This document shows positions 432 to 21,652 of a stretch of DNA of 21,652 nucleotides, one piece after another. The first letter of the stretch is position 1, and the number at the start of each line of letters is the position of its first letter. Under the pieces are notes generated by a model that had not been told where the DNA came from, made no database searches, and worked only from the letters and a program-made list of their open reading frames with translations. A program made the position numbers and the translations under genes. The DNA lies in IMG/VR virus record IMGVR_UViG_3300032093_000972, positions 1 to 21,652 of that record, one strand, 5' to 3'. The stretch is from a virus.

Positions 432-964
432 AATACACAATCGGACAAATACAAGAGGTTCACTCATTAGGTGACTTGAGTAATTTAGATAAAAAAATAG
501 AGGCATTGGCTATTCTTACTGACAAAACTATTGACGAAGTAGAAGAAATGTCAATGGATGCTATTTTAGAGGAGTTTAAGACACTTAATTTTATCCCAAG
601 TAAGACAGAACCTAAATTTGCTTTTAAGCATTTAGGTAAGAAATATAAACTCCTAACCAACCCACTCGATTTAAAGGCTCACCAATGGATTGAATTGCAG
701 GAAATCTACAATGGTGACATTATCGAATCACTTAATAAGATTATGGCTCTCCTATCGGTAGAGTCCAGTTTATTTAATAAAAAACTGGACATCGGTAAAA
801 AGGAATTTGACAAACGATGCGAAGATTTTCTATTGTTGGATTTTGCCATTGCATATAATTATGCGCTTTTTTTTTCGAAAGTCTATCCAGAATTATTGAA
901 GGCTACCCTGTCTTATTTGAAAACGGAAGTGGAGAACCTACAACAGGACTTAGACCTACATTGA
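428..964 (+). CDS. Tail assembly chaperone, short (unshifted) product
   Basis: This 178-residue protein lies just after the terminase. Its N-terminal half is acidic and helical (LTDKTIDEVEEMSMDAILEEF), typical of Bacteroidota phage tail-chaperone proteins, and it ends in a lysine/glutamate-rich helix. By analogy with lambda gpG it would coat the tape measure during tail assembly. The case for this role is the gene arrangement. Its last ~105 nt overlap a second open frame (-1), and within the overlap lies a run of nine T at 867-875 read as CTT TTT TTT TCG. The stop at 962-964 would release the short form. The position upstream of tail genes and the tape measure fits. The functional name is inference from context and architecture, since the family itself is weakly conserved. 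Confidence 0.72.
   Translation: MKYTIGQIQEVHSLGDLSNLDKKIEALAILTDKTIDEVEEMSMDAILEEFKTLNFIPSKTEPKFAFKHLGKKYKLLTNPLDLKAHQWIELQEIYNGDIIESLNKIMALLSVESSLFNKKLDIGKKEFDKRCEDFLLLDFAIAYNYALFFSKVYPELLKATLSYLKTEVENLQQDLDLH
867..875 (+). other. Probable -1 ribosomal frameshift site (T9 run)
   Basis: Nine consecutive T follow a C. In the zero frame (from 428) the codons are CTT TTT TTT TCG, so 868-874 forms the heptamer T TTT TTT, which fits X XXY YYZ. The -1 frame is open from 859 (after TAA at 856-858) to the TAA at 1162-1164. A slip here therefore joins the first 149 codons to 96 more, giving a 245-residue product. This copies the lambda G/GT layout. The alternative is a homopolymer length error in the assembly. 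Confidence 0.72.
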
Positions 965-1343: not shown

Positions 1344-2480
1344 GTGAGCGTTACTATTAACCAAAAACCTGAATTAACTACACCTGCTTACAATGATATT
1401 AACTTTGTTGTAAGTGAATCGAGTTCAACTATCTACAATAAGGACAATTTCAAATGGATTGGTGAGGTTGTCGTAGATTCTACAACCATCGCAAAACTAA
1501 AAGCACCAATTTACTACGGAAGCACAAACAAGGGTGTGTTCAATATCGGTAGAATATTAGAATCCTATGTTACACACGATTTCAACCATTCCGATACTTT
1601 GGCGAGTGGTTGCACTAATTCAACAAAGGAGTACAATTTCAAAGTAGGATATGAGTATTCAGCAAGTGCAAGTGGTGCGGTAACGGAATACTTGAACCAA
1701 GCCTCCGCAAGTGGTAGCATTTGGAACGCTGCATTAAATCCATATGACTTCGTTTCGTTTGATATCGACACCTATACTGATTCAAGCCGTAAGTTCTTAA
1801 CATCAATTCGTAGTCAATCAATCCACAGAACGCAAAAGGCGTGGTTATATGCTCTACGAGGTGTAGCAACCAATTTAAGAATAGTTTATTCAGATGCGAC
1901 AACTTCTACTTATAATTTGCCGAATGTGCGAATGGTACGAATACCAGTTAATTTGGCTACTCCATCAGGTGCAACATATTTTGATTGTTATCTTCGTGAT
2001 GTAGATGGGGTGCAGATATCGGAGAGTTACCGATTCTACATTAAAGACGAGTGCAGTAAATACGAAACCTATGATTTGTTTTGGTTGAACCGATTGGGTG
2101 GGTTTGATTCATTCCGATTTAATAGAGTATCTAAAACATCGCACGAAATAACGCGACAAATGTACAGACAAAATCCGTACACGCTAAACAATAACGCGGC
2201 AAGTTGGACGTATAGCACGGATTCATTTAGCAACACACAATTCTACGGAGAGAGTAAAGAGAAATTAACCTTGTTTAGTAATTGGATAACCGATACTGAA
2301 AGCGTATGGTTAAGAGAATTGGTAGAATCTCCTGTAGTCTATATATGGGATGGCTCAATATTGCGTAGTTGCAACGTGACCAACAACACATACGAGGAGA
2401 AAAAGTGGATAAATGACAAGATGTTTAACCTACAATTGGATTTAGAATTTGCCTTTGTTGACAAAGTACAACGCAGATGA
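1344..2480 (+). CDS. Tail structural protein (distal tail/baseplate type)
   Basis: This 378-residue protein has no signal peptide or membrane segment and is rich in Ser, Thr, Asn and aromatic residues, as beta-rich virion proteins are. It has a core SKYETYDLFWLNRLGGFDSF followed by a run of aromatic and Arg residues. I recognise this LFWLNRLGGFDSF block from a family of uncharacterised Bacteroidota phage proteins that always sit with tail genes. It is followed with ATGA overlap (2477-2480) by the 913-residue tail protein, so the two are probably co-translated and may form the tail tip together. The start is GTG at 1344; no ATG in this frame lies close by. A precise role (distal tail protein, hub or baseplate wedge) cannot be read from the sequence. 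Confidence 0.6.
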   Translation: MSVTINQKPELTTPAYNDINFVVSESSSTIYNKDNFKWIGEVVVDSTTIAKLKAPIYYGSTNKGVFNIGRILESYVTHDFNHSDTLASGCTNSTKEYNFKVGYEYSASASGAVTEYLNQASASGSIWNAALNPYDFVSFDIDTYTDSSRKFLTSIRSQSIHRTQKAWLYALRGVATNLRIVYSDATTSTYNLPNVRMVRIPVNLATPSGATYFDCYLRDVDGVQISESYRFYIKDECSKYETYDLFWLNRLGGFDSFRFNRVSKTSHEITRQMYRQNPYTLNNNAASWTYSTDSFSNTQFYGESKEKLTLFSNWITDTESVWLRELVESPVVYIWDGSILRSCNVTNNTYEEKKWINDKMFNLQLDLEFAFVDKVQRR

Positions 2481-5218
2481 TAGAAATATTAGTAAATAAT
2501 CAGAGAGTAGATATCGGACAAGCATTTGATATCCTAATAAACAAATCCATAGCCGATGTAAGAGAACCCGAAAAGCGGTCAAGCGATTGGACAAAGACGA
2601 TAGTTCTACCAGGCACGAAGAACAACAACAAGATATTTGGTCACATATTTGAGGTTGAACACACGGTATTAAGTGATAACCAATTTAGCCCTAATTTCAA
2701 CCCAAACAAAAAAGCAAGTGCGGTAGTATTGGTAGATGGAATTGAGCAAATACAAGGCTTTATTCGCTTAATTAAGATACAAGTAACGGACACGGCAAAC
2801 ATAGCCTATGAATGTTCTATACACGGACAAACCGCAGACTTGTTTTCGTCTATCTCCGAAAAGAATTTATACGAGTTAGATTTCAGCGAGTATAACCATA
2901 CACTAAGTATTGACAACGTAAAGAACTCTTGGGATACTTCTATAAAGGTTAACAATTCCACCGTTTCATTCCAATATGGTAACGGCTATGTGTATGCGTT
3001 AATAGACAAGGACGATAGGAAGTTGACAACTCATTGGGTTTGGTCTTTGGAAGATACTACTCCGTGTTTATACGCTAAAACCATTGTAGACAAGATTTTT
3101 GCGGAAGAGGGTTACTCATATACTAACGATTCATTCTTCAACACAGAACGCTTTAAACGCTTAATTATACCCGCTCCATCAGGATTAGCGGTTAACACTA
3201 CATCGGCAAACACTCGACTATTTAGAGCAGAGCGTACAACTGCACAAAATATCTCTAATTATAGTACGAATTGGTTATTTGATAACGACTCTACAAGTGG
3301 TAACTATGACAATGGCGGTAATTACAACAATACAACAGGCGTTTATACTGTACCCGTAGGAGGTAACTACACGTTTTTTGTAGATTTACGAGGCAATATA
3401 GACACATCGAATTACGGATTTACCAACGACAAGGACATTTATTTGACTGTAGCACTAAAAGCAAACGGCAGTGTGAAAGCAACTTCGGTAGTATCTTGTG
3501 GAAGTGATGACGTTTATATTTTCAGCGGTGAAGTATTGATGTTCCCTAACGTGTATCTGTACTCAAACGACCAAGTATCAATAATTGTTTCTCGTGTTTA
3601 TGACTTAGACAGACCAATAACACCAATGATTGGTGACTTTGTGGTGAACGTAGAAGATTCAGTTTTCTACAACAATATGTCGGCGATTAATTTTGGTACT
3701 GGTAACGTGGTAGACTTTGGACAATTTTTTAATGCTGAGGGTAAGCAATCTGATTTCTTAGTGTCGTTGATTCGGATGTTCAATCTCTACGTTGAACCTG
3801 ACAAGAATTTCCCTAAGAAGTTGCGTATTGTTCCACGAGATGAGTTTTACAATGAACCTACTATTGACCTATCACGTAAATTAGACTATTCTCAGCCGTT
3901 GGAAATTATACCAATGGGAGAACTTAACGCCAATCCTTACTATTTCAGTTACAAGGATGGAGGAGATAAAGTGAACCAATCGTATCAATCGTATTACTCA
4001 CAGACCTACGGAAGTAGAAAGTATTTTATAGATAACCAATTTGTAAAGGGTGAGAAAAAGATTGAGTTGATGTTCCAACCAACACAGATGAGGAGTTATG
4101 GAAGTGAAAAGAACTTTGTGTTATCGTATGCACCAGGTGATAAATTAGGGTATCGTATTCTATACTATTCGGGTTGTACTTCTAATTTAAATCTTTCTTT
4201 AGTAACAGATTATTTTAGTGTAAGTCAAATCGCAACAGGTCAACAAAACAAACTACCGATTACACTACACGTTGATTCAGTTAGTTCAATGACCTTTGAT
4301 TTGTCGTTCGGTATGCCTCGTGAAGTGTTGTTAGGTGCAGGATATTCGTATTCTTCCAATAACCTATTCAATCAGTATTGGTATCGGTTTATGTACGAGA
4401 TTACTAACCGAAACTCAAAGATTGTAAGCGGATATTTTAGACTTTCACCTGCGGATTTTTACAACCTACGATTTGCCAATAATTATTTCTTCGAGGGTCA
4501 GTATTGGAAACTTAATAAGGTAGAAGACTACAACCCAATGAGTGACGGAGTGTATAAGTGTGAGTTCTTATTAAGCCAATACATAGAACCATTTATACCA
4601 ACGAATAAAATAATAGGAGCGGATACTGGTAGCGATACTATCACCAATGGTGAGACATATCCATACGGCTACAAATACACAACGCCAACGCAATCGTATA
4701 TCAACATCGGATTTAACAACGATGATACAAACCAAGCGATGGGTATTATCAATGCATCGGAAACGTCTGTAAGCCCATTAGCGTACAATACAACAATCTT
4801 AGGTGGAAGTGGTAACTATATACCGCCATTGATTAACAACTCAACCCTAATAGCGTGTGACGATTTTACACCTGACGAATCAGACACTCTATACTATGGT
4901 AATTACAAACTTTATCCAACGTGGGTAAGTGCAGGAAAGGTACAGACACTAACGGCTAATTACACGGCAACGGCTAACGATTGGTTGTTTTTGTGTGATA
5001 CTTCAGCAGGTGCAATTACTATTACACTTCCCGACCCTGCAACAATAAGCGGTAAGCATTGGATTTTCAAAAAGATTGCATCAAACCACCAAGTAACGAT
5101 TGACACTGCTGACGATAGCACCATAGACGGAGCAAATACATTCACGATGACCAACAACAACGATACACATTGGATTGTGACCGATGGCACTAATTACTAT
5201 TTAATAGCAAGTAAGTAA
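2477..5218 (+). CDS. Large tail-tip protein with C-terminal adhesin-like beta domain
   Basis: This 913-residue protein is the largest in the window. Residues ~38-100 carry the pattern DWTKTIVLPGTKNN ... FNPNKKA ... IQGFIRLIKI, seen at the N-terminus of Bacteroidota phage tail hub or baseplate proteins. The middle (residues ~270-650) is Asn/Tyr/Ser-rich and beta-like. The last ~80 residues (AGAITITLPDPATISGKHW, DSTIDGA, GTNYYLI) match a small beta-sandwich module often found at the ends of phage fibres and other surface proteins, so this end may be exposed and contact the host. It sits between the 378-residue tail protein and the tape measure, overlapping each by only a few nucleotides (ATGA, TAATG). 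That position suggests the tail tip or hub. Domain names are by recognition, and enzymatic activity is not evident. Confidence 0.6.
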   Translation: MIEILVNNQRVDIGQAFDILINKSIADVREPEKRSSDWTKTIVLPGTKNNNKIFGHIFEVEHTVLSDNQFSPNFNPNKKASAVVLVDGIEQIQGFIRLIKIQVTDTANIAYECSIHGQTADLFSSISEKNLYELDFSEYNHTLSIDNVKNSWDTSIKVNNSTVSFQYGNGYVYALIDKDDRKLTTHWVWSLEDTTPCLYAKTIVDKIFAEEGYSYTNDSFFNTERFKRLIIPAPSGLAVNTTSANTRLFRAERTTAQNISNYSTNWLFDNDSTSGNYDNGGNYNNTTGVYTVPVGGNYTFFVDLRGNIDTSNYGFTNDKDIYLTVALKANGSVKATSVVSCGSDDVYIFSGEVLMFPNVYLYSNDQVSIIVSRVYDLDRPITPMIGDFVVNVEDSVFYNNMSAINFGTGNVVDFGQFFNAEGKQSDFLVSLIRMFNLYVEPDKNFPKKLRIVPRDEFYNEPTIDLSRKLDYSQPLEIIPMGELNANPYYFSYKDGGDKVNQSYQSYYSQTYGSRKYFIDNQFVKGEKKIELMFQPTQMRSYGSEKNFVLSYAPGDKLGYRILYYSGCTSNLNLSLVTDYFSVSQIATGQQNKLPITLHVDSVSSMTFDLSFGMPREVLLGAGYSYSSNNLFNQYWYRFMYEITNRNSKIVSGYFRLSPADFYNLRFANNYFFEGQYWKLNKVEDYNPMSDGVYKCEFLLSQYIEPFIPTNKIIGADTGSDTITNGETYPYGYKYTTPTQSYINIGFNNDDTNQAMGIINASETSVSPLAYNTTILGGSGNYIPPLINNSTLIACDDFTPDESDTLYYGNYKLYPTWVSAGKVQTLTANYTATANDWLFLCDTSAGAITITLPDPATISGKHWIFKKIASNHQVTIDTADDSTIDGANTFTMTNNNDTHWIVTDGTNYYLIASK

Positions 5219-6804
5219 TGAGTACAATAAAAACCGCAATAGAACTCGAAGTTAAAGAGCCGAACCTCAAAGGATTTAGGCAACAACTTCGAGAGTTGAC
5301 ATTAGCCGCACAAGAAGCGGTTGTTAAATTTGGTGAGTTCTCACCAGAAGCGATTGAAGCAGAACGTCGTGTTGCTGAATTGCGGGATAGGATGGATGAC
5401 TTTAATGACCGAGTTGCAGCGGTTAACCCTGACAAATTCGCACAAATTAACACGGTTGTAAGTGGTGTTGCTCGTGGATTCCAAGCGGCTCAAGGTGCTA
5501 TGGCTTTATTTGGTAGCGAATCCGAAGATTTACAAAAGACTTTGGTGCGTTTACAAGGTGCAATGGCATTGGCTGAGGGATTAGAGGGATTAGGTAAAGT
5601 TCAACAACAATTTGGGGCTATTGCAGGAACGATAAAAGGTAGCGTAGTTAAGGCATTTTCGACTTTAAGAGGCGCAATTATAGCAACGGGAATTGGTGCT
5701 TTAGCGGTTGGACTTGCCTTAGTCGCTGCCAACTTTGATAAAGTAAAGACTGCTATTTTAAATATGTTCCCATTCTTGGAAAAGTTTGGGAAATTTATGG
5801 GTAACTTGATTCAAAGATTTACCGATTTTGTAGGTATAACATCAGAAAGTAACAGACAATTAGAAGCATTTAATAAAACTACTAATAATCGAATTTTATT
5901 ACTTGATAGAGAGATTGAATTTTTAAGGGCACAAGGTAAAGAGTTAGAAGCCTTTGCAAAAGAACGTGAAAAACTAAATCTACAATTAGCACAAGCGAGA
6001 GCAAACTACGGAAAGAATGCAGAAAAAGAATGGGGTAAAATTATCGGAGATACTAAGAACGCTTTACGAATTTTAGAAGTAACGGAGAAAAACTATTTAG
6101 CCGAACAGGCAAAAATGAGAGCGGAGGCAAGGGCAAAAGAACTTGAAAAAGAAAAGCAACATCGTAAAGACTTAGAATCTGCATTGTCTGACATACATCG
6201 TAAAGGCTTAGAACAACGTAGCGCATTAGATGCAGAAGTATTAAGAATCTCAAGAACAACACAAGCACAAATAGTTGTTGAATCACAACAATTAGAAGCA
6301 AGTAATTTAGAGCGTATGCGTATGTTTTGGCGTGCGCATTATACCGAGATAGTAGATTTAACCAGTCAAGCATTTGGCGCAATTACTTATTTAAATCAAT
6401 CATTTGAAAAACAAGACGAAGCGTCAAGAAAAAGAGCGTTTGAGAATAACAAAAAGTTACAGATTGCAAATACAATTATAGGTACACTTAATTCGATTGT
6501 TTCCATATTTGCAAACGCATCTAAGAATCCTGCATCTATTCCATTTCCTGCCTATCCTTATATTCAAGCATCATTGGCAGGTGTTTATGGATTTGCCAAC
6601 GTACAACGTATTAGAAACACTCAATACAACGGGGGAACGTCCGCTCCATCTGCTCCAACAATTGGAGGTGCAGCCCCTACAATGACAACAGGAAGTACAT
6701 TAAACGAGAATGCTTCAGGGAATCAAGTTTATGTGTTAGAGGGTGATATAACACGCACTCAACAAAGAGTAGGAATGAACAGAGGTGTATCAGTTGTCGA
6801 ATAA
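5218..6804 (+). CDS. Tape measure protein
   Basis: This 528-residue protein sets tail length and is thought to leave the tail during DNA ejection. The N-terminal ~130 residues are helical with heptads (residues 22-70) and contain AAQGAMALFGSESEDL, common in this family. A hydrophobic stretch at 153-171 (AIIATGIGALAVGLALVAA) is the usual tape-measure membrane-like segment. Residues 210-370 are a long charged coiled-coil. The C-terminal block from KKLQIANTIIGTLNSIVSIF (412-431) through NVQRIRNTQY (461-470) is typical of Bacteroidota phage tape measures. At ~1.5 A per residue it would give a tail of about 80 nm, an estimate only. It is unusual that the gene lies after two tail-tip genes rather than directly after the chaperones. 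Confidence 0.88.
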   Translation: MSTIKTAIELEVKEPNLKGFRQQLRELTLAAQEAVVKFGEFSPEAIEAERRVAELRDRMDDFNDRVAAVNPDKFAQINTVVSGVARGFQAAQGAMALFGSESEDLQKTLVRLQGAMALAEGLEGLGKVQQQFGAIAGTIKGSVVKAFSTLRGAIIATGIGALAVGLALVAANFDKVKTAILNMFPFLEKFGKFMGNLIQRFTDFVGITSESNRQLEAFNKTTNNRILLLDREIEFLRAQGKELEAFAKEREKLNLQLAQARANYGKNAEKEWGKIIGDTKNALRILEVTEKNYLAEQAKMRAEARAKELEKEKQHRKDLESALSDIHRKGLEQRSALDAEVLRISRTTQAQIVVESQQLEASNLERMRMFWRAHYTEIVDLTSQAFGAITYLNQSFEKQDEASRKRAFENNKKLQIANTIIGTLNSIVSIFANASKNPASIPFPAYPYIQASLAGVYGFANVQRIRNTQYNGGTSAPSAPTIGGAAPTMTTGSTLNENASGNQVYVLEGDITRTQQRVGMNRGVSVVE

Positions 6805-10284: not shown

Positions 10285-10546
10285 TTCAACCGAATTTATG
10301 GCAGGGTTCACAGGCAGCCGTGTTGTATCAGGCACTTCAGCAGTCACAGGAAATTGGCGTGGATTTATTGTAAACGCTGATTGCGTAGTATCTGCAATAT
10401 TAGACGAAGCAAACGCATCTTTATTGACATCATTAGGATTAAGTGGTGTTACATTAAGACAAGGTGCATTTATTGTCGTTCCTGAAGAGAAGATAATTCG
10501 CTCTATCACTTTGACAAGTGGTAGCGTAGTAATGTATAATATATGA
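10277..10546 (+). CDS. Small uncharacterised virion-type protein
   Basis: This 89-residue, Gly/Ser/Thr- and Val-rich protein has no Lys-rich patches or membrane segment. It contains SAVTGNWRGFIVNADCVVSA, then VTLRQGAFIVVPEEKIIRSI and a final SGSVVMYNI. The pattern of short alternating strands suggests a compact beta-barrel, such as a decoration, fibre-attachment or trimer-cap protein. It overlaps its upstream neighbour by 8 nt and its downstream fibre gene by 4 nt (ATGA at 10543-10546), so the three are translated as a unit. Similar short proteins occur before fibre genes in Bacteroidota phages, but I know of no assigned function. Confidence 0.55.
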   Translation: MSSSTEFMAGFTGSRVVSGTSAVTGNWRGFIVNADCVVSAILDEANASLLTSLGLSGVTLRQGAFIVVPEEKIIRSITLTSGSVVMYNI

Positions 10547-11907
10547 TTGGATTAGGCGTTGGCGTTAATCGTAGACGCTTTGCGGGTGGATTTGCAGGGT
10601 CTTATTCATCCCGTGTAATTGCCGATGGTGGAACGATTGAGGCACTTGATTGTGTTGCCGCTGCATCATCATTATTACAATCTGCATCGTTATTATTAAT
10701 CCCAAGCGGATATAAGGCAGGTGTTGCCTATGCTGAATTGCCATCCAATGGGAATGGCGATTTAACGTGGTCAAGAAATAGCGTAGCAAACAGAACGCAA
10801 TCTAATGGTAATATCGGTAGTGTTGCGGCTAACTTCCCACGTTTATCCTATATGTACGGAAGTTGCCCCGCATTATTGTTAGAACCACAGAGAACGAATA
10901 GTATCCGTAATTCTACAATGCAAGGTGCAAGTACAAGTCCGAGTACCTTGCCGACTAACTGGCTAAATCAATCAACGGCTGGATTGACATTGGAGGTCAG
11001 CGGAACGGGTCAAGAAAATGGACTTGATTATGTGGACATTCGATATAGTGGAACAGCAACAAGTACGACTGCTCGTTTATTTTTCGAAGCATCAAACCAA
11101 ATTGTTGCCGCTGATGGACAGATATGGACAGAAAGTATTTGGACTTCAATTTCGGGTTCAGCGTTACCGAGTAATTATAGATTGGGGGTTGCTACTAACA
11201 CCTCAGCAGGATTTTCGGTAAGTTCTATTGTTGCTACCCCTAACATCACTCAATCAACTACATTAACTCGTTATGATAGAGTAATGACATTACCAGGGGG
11301 GGCAACCGTTGCAAGGGCTAACCCTGGTATATACATTTCATTGGTTAACGGCAACACCTACGATTTCACCATTCGCATCGCAGCACCACAATTTGAATTT
11401 GGGCAATTTGTAACTACATATATCAATACAACCAATGCCGCAGCAACACGATTGGTAGATACATTTACTCGAAATAACATTTACACCAATGGTTTAATTT
11501 CTGCAAGTGGTGGAACTTTATTTATTGAAATGCTCAACAACATTGCATATACAAGAGATGCCGCAGCACAAGGTATAGGAATTGGCGATTCAAGTTCAAC
11601 AATTGCCAATGGATTTTTGATTGTGAATACTGGAACGGGTAGACAAGTAATTCAAAAAATAATTGCAAGTGCAACTACTAATTTATTCACTACAACAACC
11701 GACACTATTAAAATTGCTATCAAATGGAATGGAACGAGTGCTGATGTGTTTGTGAATGGAGTTAAACAAGTTAGTGCAACTGCATTTACAACTACAATAA
11801 TGGAATTTTTAAACGGAACTGGGGCGGGAATACCAAGATGGATTAAAACAATGGCACTATACCCAACGCCTTTAAGTGATGCAGATTGCACAGCCTTAAC
11901 AACATAA
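10543..11907 (+). CDS. Tail fibre / receptor-binding protein with LamG-like C-terminus
   Basis: This 454-residue protein starts MIGLGVGVNRRRFAGG and carries the short leader SYSSRVIADGGTIEALDCV (residues 20-38), common at the N-terminus of Bacteroidota phage fibre proteins. Residues 72-119 hold the phage adhesin motif DLTWSRNSVANRTQ ... FPRLSY ... CPALLLEPQRTN. The last ~145 residues (TLFIEML, IKIAIKWNGTSADVFVNGVK, WIKTMALYPTPLSDADC) match a concanavalin/LamG-like carbohydrate-binding sandwich. It most likely binds a host surface glycan or forms part of the tail fibre. Its first in-frame residues overlap the upstream small protein by 4 nt. It is far from the other tail genes, so it could be a head fibre instead. 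Confidence 0.7.
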   Translation: MIGLGVGVNRRRFAGGFAGSYSSRVIADGGTIEALDCVAAASSLLQSASLLLIPSGYKAGVAYAELPSNGNGDLTWSRNSVANRTQSNGNIGSVAANFPRLSYMYGSCPALLLEPQRTNSIRNSTMQGASTSPSTLPTNWLNQSTAGLTLEVSGTGQENGLDYVDIRYSGTATSTTARLFFEASNQIVAADGQIWTESIWTSISGSALPSNYRLGVATNTSAGFSVSSIVATPNITQSTTLTRYDRVMTLPGGATVARANPGIYISLVNGNTYDFTIRIAAPQFEFGQFVTTYINTTNAAATRLVDTFTRNNIYTNGLISASGGTLFIEMLNNIAYTRDAAAQGIGIGDSSSTIANGFLIVNTGTGRQVIQKIIASATTNLFTTTTDTIKIAIKWNGTSADVFVNGVKQVSATAFTTTIMEFLNGTGAGIPRWIKTMALYPTPLSDADCTALTT

Positions 11908-12615: not shown

Positions 12616-12631
12616 ATACTATTTATAAGTG

Positions 12632-14509
12632 ATGTTTCATCGGATTAATTTTCACGACAACAAACTACCTGCTTTTAAAGAGAACAAAGCAAAGGGTATA
12701 TATACATTTGGAGATGACAACTTATACCCTGAGTTCTTAATCGAAATGTACAATAAATCCCCTAAGCACAATGCGATTGTAAGCGCAAAGGCATCGTATT
12801 TAGCAGGTGTAGGTACTTCAATCAAAGGACAAGATACCGCAATCATTGCAAAGGCTCAACAGAAAGTCGAGGCAATCAACGCATACGAAAGTTTAGACGA
12901 ACTCAAAGCCAAAGTAGCGGATGACTTAGAGTTGTTTAATGGGTTTGCATTGGAGGTTATTTGGTCACGTGACAAACAGAAAATATCCGAGATTTATCAC
13001 TTACCATTCCAAAAAATCCGTAAAACCTTAGCCGATAAGTTTGCGTTCTGCGAGGATTGGTCTGATAGAAAATGCGAGATAATCGAATACAACCCATTTA
13101 ACCCTATTACTCGTGAATCAAAGCAGTTGTACTATTGCCAACTATACAGAGCAGGACAAGGAATTTATCCTTTACCCGATTATGTAGGTGGATTAAAATA
13201 CATTGAAATCGACACGGAGGTTTCTAATTGGCATTTAAATTCCATCAAAAACGGATTTTCTGCTCAGACCTTAATTCAAATGTTCAAGGGTTATCCAACA
13301 CCTGAGGAGGCTCGTAAGACCGAAAGAGCATTAAAGAAAAACTACACGGGTACAGACAATGCAGGAGGCTTGATTATTCAGTACAATGACCCTAACGAAA
13401 AGGAAAGCATAATCAACAACCTACAACCAAGCGATTTTGACAAGCAATTTGACATCTTAAATAAGACCGTACAACAAGAGATTTTTGTTTCGCACAAGGT
13501 AAACTCCCCAATGCTCTTTGGAGTGCGTGTAGAGGGTCAATTAGGCGGTAGAAGCGAACTAATCGAAGCATATGAGATGTTTCAATCTGCATACGTTGAA
13601 CCACGTCAAAAAAAGTTAGACGATGCGTTGACTTACTTGTTTGAGTATATTGCACCTGTACAACTACGAACTGAGAACAAACCACCATTAGGTTTAGATT
13701 ATAGCGAATTGTTTGCAAAGGGAATTATAACCAACGAGGAAGCACGTCAAGAAATGGGATTACCTCAATTGTCCACCGTGAAAGTTCAGTCATCTCTAAA
13801 CGATGCTATCAATTCATTGAGTCCATTGGTTGCAAACAATGTGTTGTCAAATATGACAATCAACGAGAAACGTCAATTGGCAGGTTTACCACCAATTCCA
13901 AATGGGGATGCTATCGAATCGGCTACTCCTGCGGCTTTTAGCAAACAAAATCCATTCGGTTGGGATGACGAAAGAGATTTACAAGTATTCGCTAAATACG
14001 GAGAATCAGCGGACTTATACGAAGAGGTGAAGTTTGAGTTTGGCGATGCTCTTAACAAAGCGTTGTTGAATATTCTTGCAGAAAATCCAGGACTACAAAC
14101 AGGTGATTTGGTCAACCTAACTAAACAACCTGCACAGAACGTAATGGATGCGTTAACCGAGTTGATTAAATCGGATAGAATCGCTCCCGAAGTCAACGGA
14201 TATAAAGTGACCTCTAAAGGTAGAGATTTGATTAAAGGCTTAGAAACAGAATTAGTGGTTAGATATCAGTACGAAAAAGCACCCGGTATTGAGGGTGGTT
14301 TATTAATACCAACATCAAGGGATTTTTGCCGTAAAATCGTAGAATCAAACAAAGTATTTAGCCGTGAGGACATCAACCAAATGACCGCAGAACTTGGTTA
14401 CGATGTTTGGAAACGTCGTGGTAAATGGTACACTAACCCCGATACAGGAATAACAACTCCACAATGTAGGCATATCTGGCAACAAAAGGTAATGATTAGA
14501 AAGAAATGA
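12632..14509 (+). CDS. Portal protein with C-terminal winged-helix and MuF-like domains
   Basis: The start is ATG at 12632 (a GTG codon lies just before at 12629), giving 625 residues. The portal is the ring at one head vertex through which DNA is packaged. It begins FHRINFHDNKLPAF and has the portal core from GDDNLYPEFL to NKTVQQEIFVSHKVNSPMLF and LGGRSELIEAYEMFQ, with KGIITNEEARQEMGLPQL near 364-381. Beyond that is an unusual extension. Residues ~472-535 look like a winged helix (ALLNILAENPGLQTGDLVNL, EVNGYKVTSKGRDLIK). Residues ~543-626 carry SRDFCRKIVESNKVFSREDI and YDVWKRRGKWYTN, ending at CRHIW (613-617), a signature of MuF-type minor head proteins. No separate MuF gene follows, so the domain may be fused here. 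Confidence 0.85.
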   Translation: MFHRINFHDNKLPAFKENKAKGIYTFGDDNLYPEFLIEMYNKSPKHNAIVSAKASYLAGVGTSIKGQDTAIIAKAQQKVEAINAYESLDELKAKVADDLELFNGFALEVIWSRDKQKISEIYHLPFQKIRKTLADKFAFCEDWSDRKCEIIEYNPFNPITRESKQLYYCQLYRAGQGIYPLPDYVGGLKYIEIDTEVSNWHLNSIKNGFSAQTLIQMFKGYPTPEEARKTERALKKNYTGTDNAGGLIIQYNDPNEKESIINNLQPSDFDKQFDILNKTVQQEIFVSHKVNSPMLFGVRVEGQLGGRSELIEAYEMFQSAYVEPRQKKLDDALTYLFEYIAPVQLRTENKPPLGLDYSELFAKGIITNEEARQEMGLPQLSTVKVQSSLNDAINSLSPLVANNVLSNMTINEKRQLAGLPPIPNGDAIESATPAAFSKQNPFGWDDERDLQVFAKYGESADLYEEVKFEFGDALNKALLNILAENPGLQTGDLVNLTKQPAQNVMDALTELIKSDRIAPEVNGYKVTSKGRDLIKGLETELVVRYQYEKAPGIEGGLLIPTSRDFCRKIVESNKVFSREDINQMTAELGYDVWKRRGKWYTNPDTGITTPQCRHIWQQKVMIRKK

Positions 14510-21160: not shown

Positions 21161-21432
21161 AACTATACACAGAATTTGAAGTACGCAAGGCAATTGAATT
21201 GGCACAAGAATGTGAGCACGAATGTGGTGGAGTTTATTTTGACTATACTAAAAAGGAAATAATAGATGAACTAACCCCCATCGAACTACCAAGTGATGAG
21301 GAGATATGGGAAGAAGGTAAATTGGTATTTAGTGAAAAAGGTAAAACTATTTATACTCATTACAATACAGTTCCAAGCTGGAGTGATGGAGCAAAATGGA
21401 TGAGAGATAAAATACAAGGAGGTAACAAATGA
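21157..21432 (+). CDS. Tandem paralogue A, small acidic protein
   Basis: This 91-residue protein begins MKLYTEFEVRKAIELAQECE, has LTPIELPSDEEIW in the middle (residues ~39-51) and ends WMRDKIQGGNK. The same beginning, the TPIELPSDE block and the same KIQGGNK end occur in the next gene, so the two arose by duplication. The region in between differs (WSDGAKWMRDK here, FQFGAMWLKDK there). The pattern of a variable middle with a conserved W-x-x-x-K end is found in small phage proteins of unknown role. It starts ATGA after the membrane protein. Confidence 0.7.
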   Translation: MKLYTEFEVRKAIELAQECEHECGGVYFDYTKKEIIDELTPIELPSDEEIWEEGKLVFSEKGKTIYTHYNTVPSWSDGAKWMRDKIQGGNK

Positions 21433-21433
21433 A
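21407..21433 (+). repeat. Repeated junction (copy 1): gene end, Shine-Dalgarno and next start
   Basis: This stretch, and its copy at 21615-21641, are near-identical (one mismatch near the left end): AAAATACAAGGAGGTAACAA followed by ATGA. Each encodes the KIQGGNK end of one gene, a GGAGG ribosome binding site and the start codon of the next. ATGAAACTATACACAGAA is also repeated at 21157-21174 and 21429-21446. The unit probably spread by tandem duplication. Confidence 0.75.
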
Positions 21434-21641
21434 ACTATACACAGAAGAACAAGTAAAGGATATGTTAAATGGTTATGGTAACTTTGAGGATATCACCCCC
21501 ATCGAACTCCCAAGTGATGAAGATATATATAATGAAGCACAAAGCAAAAAAGACAACATAAAAAAACTACCATTCGATAGTGCTTCATTTCAATTTGGTG
21601 CAATGTGGTTAAAAGACAAAATACAAGGAGGTAACAAATGA
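21429..21641 (+). CDS. Tandem paralogue B, small acidic protein
   Basis: This 70-residue protein begins MKLYTEEQVKDMLNGYGNFE, has ITPIELPSDEDIYNEAQSKK and ends FQFGAMWLKDKIQGGNK. The first six residues and the last seven are identical to the preceding gene, and the TPIELPSDE block is conserved, but the middle is shorter and more diverged. It has a clear Shine-Dalgarno site, GGAGG at 21418-21422, six bases before ATG. The ATG overlaps the previous stop (ATGA). Confidence 0.7.
   Translation: MKLYTEEQVKDMLNGYGNFEDITPIELPSDEDIYNEAQSKKDNIKKLPFDSASFQFGAMWLKDKIQGGNK
21615..21641 (+). repeat. Repeated junction (copy 2)
   Basis: This is the second copy of the junction at 21407-21433, again with GGAGG (21627-21631) six bases before an ATG (21638). 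The third occurrence of GGAGGTAACAA is at 19806, before the membrane protein at 19816, but without the surrounding sequence. Confidence 0.75.
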
Positions 21642-21652
21642 TAATCTACCAC
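21638..21652 (+). CDS. Start of a further gene, cut by the window end
   Basis: ATG at 21638 overlaps the preceding stop as ATGA and follows GGAGG by six bases. Only five codons (MIIYH) lie in the window. It does not begin with MKLYTE, so it is not an evident third copy of the paralogue, though it shares the same upstream junction. Confidence 0.55.

Follow-up and report, generated by a model that had tools for sequence, protein, structure and literature searches.

The window analysed here, the whole 21,652-nt stretch of IMG/VR virus record IMGVR_UViG_3300032093_000972, begins inside a terminase gene whose end runs into a pair of overlapping reading frames, and a run of nine Ts lies within their overlap. 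The features at this locus are:

3–431, + strand: 3' part of the putative large terminase gene (weak PHROG terminase matches), overlapping the start of the pair
428–964, + strand: zero-frame ORF for the short product of 178 aa, made up of an N domain and 29 residues past the T run
859–964, + strand: overlap of 106 nt in which both frames are open
859–1164, + strand: -1 frame ORF, of which the part from 874 gives a 96-aa C domain with an invariant DRTKWD..F motif
867–875, + strand: T9 slip run, in the phase CTT TTT TTT TCG
868–874, + strand: embedded heptamer T TTT TTT, candidate site for a ribosomal -1 slip
428–1164, + strand: predicted 245-aa fusion (codons of 428–874, then 874–1161 in the -1 frame, stop at 1162–1164)

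The zero frame ends with a stop codon at 962–964; the -1 frame is preceded by a stop at 856–858, and its first ATG, GTG or TTG is the TTG at 961. The run, its phase, the two-frame overlap and the late start had all been picked out in an earlier note made from the sequence alone, and the ORF coordinates confirm them, as the spliced translation does for the predicted 245-residue fusion, obtained by reading to 874 and resuming at 874 in the -1 frame. The same note held that the -1 frame reads as protein from 874, which is correct for the open reading but not for the peptide that it quoted: translation from 874 gives FESLSRIIEGYPVLF, and EGYPVLF... begins only at 898. The predicted junction peptide of the window protein is CEDFLLLDFAIAYNYALFFFESLSR as against CEDFLLLDFAIAYNYALFFSK. 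The AlphaFold2 model of the zero-frame product has a mean pLDDT of 88, that of the C domain is only moderate (pLDDT 70), and an Rfam search of the window gave no match. No other run of nine or more As or Ts occurs in the window. By our own arithmetic, about 0.2 T9 runs would be expected by chance from the window's size and T content, so that the presence of the run alone is little proof, and the proof has to come from its conservation.

Conservation of the T run in two phage families

A search of IMG/VR with the fusion returned 79 loci, with identities from 95% down to about 31%. All of them have an upstream ORF of about 180–235 aa (truncated by the contig in L072) with the C domain in its -1 frame, and exactly T9 where the two frames overlap; the peptide patterns behind these loci exclude the T run itself. 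Three further scans led to 140 unique records (32 clusters when grouped at 80% amino-acid identity, 13 when grouped at 50%), and the run could be clearly placed in 139 of these records. Every one of the 139 informative relatives has exactly T9 and the -1 relation, with no T7, T8 or T10 among them, and L198, which is cut at its contig start and stands outside the 139, reads T9 likewise. Overlaps in the relatives range from 106 to 214 nt, and homology spans the full length of the fusion in L002–L009 and many others. An independent DNA pattern that tolerates other run lengths (seven Ts and 0–4 free bases) found T9 in 93 of 93 true matches, its sole T7 match being an unrelated sequence. The expectation of the earlier note that homologues would keep the run and an open -1 frame is thereby borne out, and the artefact that it had considered, a continuous frame or a miscounted T8 or T10, has no example in either set. 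Judging from these alignments, T9 has been kept despite very deep divergence among uncultured tailed phages that form a large group and whose hosts are probably Bacteroidota; two genome scans for a named host or prophage of the window phage gave no confirmed relative. On the tree of the family, L075 and its relatives (L075–L080 and L081–L092) sit on a very long branch of 2.1 changes per column, with an unchanged T9 site.

Purifying selection on the -1 ORF is strong. Past the zero-frame stop the -1 frame is the only coding one; seven clusters have a dN/dS of 0.006–0.08 there, with dS of 0.36–1.3, and the value obtained for the -1 ORF after that stop is about 0.014; across the 240 nt of the zero-frame ORF that precede the run it is about 0.04. 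With dS of this size, synonymous sites have been much altered, and the T run has not. Elsewhere in both frames, 71% of the Phe codons are TTT.

Searches of annotated phages by DNA and by tblastn with the window fusion as the query found no close homologues, and a PDB fold search with the zero-frame model gave no meaningful match to a solved structure. A fold search with the same model led to uncharacterised phage proteins that include one of Nonlabens phage P12024S, and the link between the window family and P12024 was obtained by fold only. In the related P12024L, the gene directly after the terminase has T9 at 24388–24396 and its -1 ORF encodes a C domain that has diverged, and the T9 site is also present, unannotated, in the cultured Nonlabens phage P12024S. 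The gp40–gp41 pair of these Nonlabens (Persicivirga) phages thus resembles that of the window in its position after the terminase, its T9 and its recognisable C domain, which has a WGW motif but, unlike that of the window, no DRTKWD motif. The annotation overlooks the fusion, and the P12024L record shows gp40 and gp41 as two separate, unrelated hypothetical proteins. Twelve additional relatives all have T9, and a wider scan with the P12024 C domain reached more than 551 relatives, 80 of them listed; the -1 relation is kept in all 80 listed loci of this sister family, the automatic call of another frame for L351 being an artefact of a short overlap. Of 41 representatives that differ from one another by more than 15%, 34 have T9, six T10 and one T8, and none has a run below eight.

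The sole T8 lineage (L380, L383, L385, L388, L405 and L417) has a hairpin (e.g., GGACATCGTGGAGGGATGTC) that ends about 3 nt before the run and resembles an intrinsic terminator or the hairpin-aided slippage of other T8 sites; it is found in this one lineage only. A weak fold match in Flavobacterium phage 6H (AGN89393) has T7 and a -1 frame that stops at once, and was left out of the counts. The gene at 10352–10927 on the minus strand of that phage (L224) ends near a T TTT TTC, and a C-domain-like ORF comes later.

Polymerase or ribosome at the T run

Programmed -1 fusion of the two overlapping frames at T9 is very strongly supported by these comparisons. Recoding in tail chaperones is textbook ribosomal frameshifting, and to our knowledge every characterised tail chaperone uses a ribosomal frameshift. 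A programmed -1 frameshift at the heptamer was also what the earlier note had proposed, and of that claim the -1 fusion stands, while the ribosomal route does less well, a length of nine kept in three phases being a better fit to the polymerase. Under the mechanism that we favour, ordinary expression would give the short 178-aa protein, and host RNA polymerase would slip on the template of U9 so that a fraction of the transcripts carries one extra U. Normal translation of the U10 message would then lead into the C domain and yield the 245-aa fusion. Messages that had lost one U by slippage would be read into the third frame, with a short truncated product as the result. The short and long forms would be made in a set ratio and would most likely act like gpG and gpGT of lambda: the N domain that they share would sit on the tape measure, and the C domain would bring in tail tube subunits. 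Since the polymerase and the ribosome would yield the same protein, the question of which of them slips hinges on what is conserved.

The length of the run is conserved in a way that is not tied to one reading of it. T9 was found in codon phases 0, 1 and 2, and over 73 representatives a loss of Ts at one end goes with a gain at the other, with a correlation of -0.82. T9 is present in 66 of the 73, as against 40.9 expected if the two ends were independent, a number that none of 100,000 shuffles attained, with the proviso that the shuffle ignores ancestry. On a tree, the minimum number of changes is eight for the left end, ten for the right end and five for run length, and supported branches force at least five changes for T9 in phase 2; a tree-aware sign test, underpowered with only five independent pairs, gave about 4.4 in agreement and none in disagreement (p 0.06–0.25). 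Conserved length of a run of nine As or Ts among homologues was described by Baranov et al. as a sign of purposeful transcriptional slippage (PMC1088944), and the window family has T9 in all of its informative members, with T8–T10, mostly T9, in the sister family. Outside the site, 230 kb of sequence contain no T9 or longer where about five would be expected, and two A9 or longer where about ten would be, and runs of eight are closer to expectation than these. A scarcity of runs of nine or more, but not of eight, fits a slippage threshold near nine, and replication slippage could also be its cause. Downstream RNA structure, a frequent but not constant companion of ribosomal -1 sites, was not found in the 32 clusters (mean z +0.19 and +0.13), and just upstream of the run there was no general signal of conserved structure (window family mean z -0.33).

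The same fusion would be made if two tRNA-Phe slipped back by one base on U UUU UUU in ribosomal -1 frameshifting, a long run only boosting its efficiency, and this is a serious possibility if not a likely one. A ribosomal -1 slip calls for a heptamer X XXY YYZ, and T TTT TTT, which has this form, stands in the zero frame at every homologue examined, as it must in any in-frame T9, and the sister family has T8 and T10 besides T9. The claim of the earlier note that all-T slip sites are less often described has to be set beside an existing precedent, P2 gpE/E+E', where a shift described as translational takes place at T TTT TTG with no downstream structure (PMC3091744). However, the sites of P2 gpE and its relatives are T6G and nothing longer, and U_UUU_UUU shifts far less readily than A_AAA_AAG in E. 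coli (PMC5009743). Ribosomal slipping does not account for nine Ts where six or seven suffice, nor for the compensation between the two ends over three codon phases, nor for the absence of runs below eight. The presence of T9 in three phases, the end compensation, the scarcity of long runs elsewhere, the lack of structure and a P2 site of only T6G together favour slippage of RNA polymerase, which is the probable main route, and both routes may contribute.

P2 gpE and gpE+E' (Pfam PF10109, Phage_TAC_7), a pair with a role in the tail, resemble the window pair in having a short and a -1 extended form from one start, an all-T slip site and no downstream structure; they differ in their T6G site, which is assigned to ribosomal frameshifting, in adjoining the tape measure and in lacking profile similarity to the window pair. 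In lambda, gpG and gpGT act in tail assembly and are likewise a short product and its -1 fusion with a second domain, but G/GT adjoins the tape measure gene H, and no similarity to the window pair was detected. The ribosomal slip site of lambda gpG/gpGT is G GGA AAG. Two length variants from an A or T homopolymer by transcriptional slippage, as proposed here, are made by mxiE/spa13 of Shigella, tssM1 of Citrobacter and IS elements, all of which differ from the window in not being phage tail genes and in having a conservation shown over far fewer lineages; tssM1 and the IS elements also have poly-A in place of the T run. Both length forms are needed in the case of tssM1 (PMC4256274). The literature searched, which takes in few subscription journals, yielded no phage tail chaperone for which transcriptional slippage is described. 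If polymerase slippage is the true route, it is the homopolymer length, rather than its codon reading, that selection keeps, and RNA polymerase can drive the tail-chaperone design, here in hosts that are probably Bacteroidota. That a large phage group sets its tail-chaperone ratio by slippage of RNA polymerase on T9, and not by ribosomal frameshift, is put forward tentatively, at slightly under even confidence. Hundreds of contigs carry the site, and the cultured P12024L and P12024S allow direct testing.

Gene neighbourhood and the nature of the pair

Beyond the terminase and the pair, three genes bear on the role of the products:

1344–2480, + strand: tail-region gene of the phrog_35281 family, common to P12024L gp45
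2477–5218, + strand: tail-region gene of 913 aa, an example of the ~900-aa protein downstream of the pair
5218–6804, + strand: candidate tape-measure gene of 528 aa, assigned by position and composition only

The place of the pair between the terminase and the tail genes is conserved, with an ORF of about 400 aa at the position of the terminase in the relatives and an annotated terminase in P12024L. There the tape measure also lies downstream, gp50, which is syntenic with the 5218–6804 gene, matching the tape-measure phrog_9483 at 5.6e-12. From this gene order and from the short and long products, the pair is likely to be a tail-assembly chaperone. The earlier note had called it a lambda G/GT pair, and both the design, a shared N domain in a short and a long product as read from the frame arrangement and its conservation, and the gene order agree with that. 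The relationship itself was not recovered, as hhalign comparisons with lambda gpG and P2 gpE gave probabilities under 1%, and the matches to chaperone families stayed below threshold for both Pfam PF10109 (best E 0.0037, with matches in 3 of 19 members) and PHROG phrog_1613 (E 0.29). Nor does the pair lie between a major tail protein and the tape measure, from which tail genes separate it. The chaperone role is thus judged likely on the G/GT-like design, as set against a non-adjacent tape measure, null profile comparisons and weak Pfam and PHROG matches. The full account, with polymerase slippage and a tail-chaperone pair taken together, we infer with confidence that is only slightly better than even.

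It is unlikely, by our estimate, that the recoding is real and the product some other virion or packaging factor that belongs beside the terminase. The position of the pair directly after that gene and several genes ahead of the candidate tape measure would suit such a factor, as would the lack of homology to known chaperones. Against it, short and long products that share an N domain are the hallmark of tail chaperones, the chaperone families do give the weak matches noted above, and no second overlapping pair of this kind was seen in the window.

It is far less probable still that the -1 ORF is translated as an independent gene from a start of its own. P12024L gp41 is annotated in this way, and the end of the run forms a TTG in many class 1 sequences. 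In the window, though, nothing earlier than the TTG at 961 could serve, no ATG precedes the conserved -1 motif in 20 of the 32 cluster representatives, and in six of the 32 there is no start codon whatever before DRTKWD. As 20 of the clusters have no ATG before the motif, the -1 frame relies on an upstream start, and both the homology and the T run are located at the joint of the fusion. Homopolymers are common sequencing errors, but an assembly error or a broken gene has a negligible probability and is refuted by conservation: about 200 loci drawn from many metagenomes share the frame arrangement, as do the cultured P12024 genomes, and purifying selection on the -1 ORF is strong.

Some minor observations concern the rest of the window. 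The 179 nt that separate the pair from the following gene (1165–1343) hold no listed ORF, and a gene of about 170–230 aa occupies this place in most relatives (e.g., 5273–5899 in L028). The portal protein encoded at 12629–14509 has C-terminal residues (474–518) that weakly match MarR/HTH domains. Bacteroidota rarely use Shine-Dalgarno signals, and an imperfect 54-nt repeat at 21387–21440 and 21596–21649, upstream of two small genes, carries AAGGAGGTAACAAATG, a strong Shine-Dalgarno-like sequence that would be unusual if the host belongs to that phylum.
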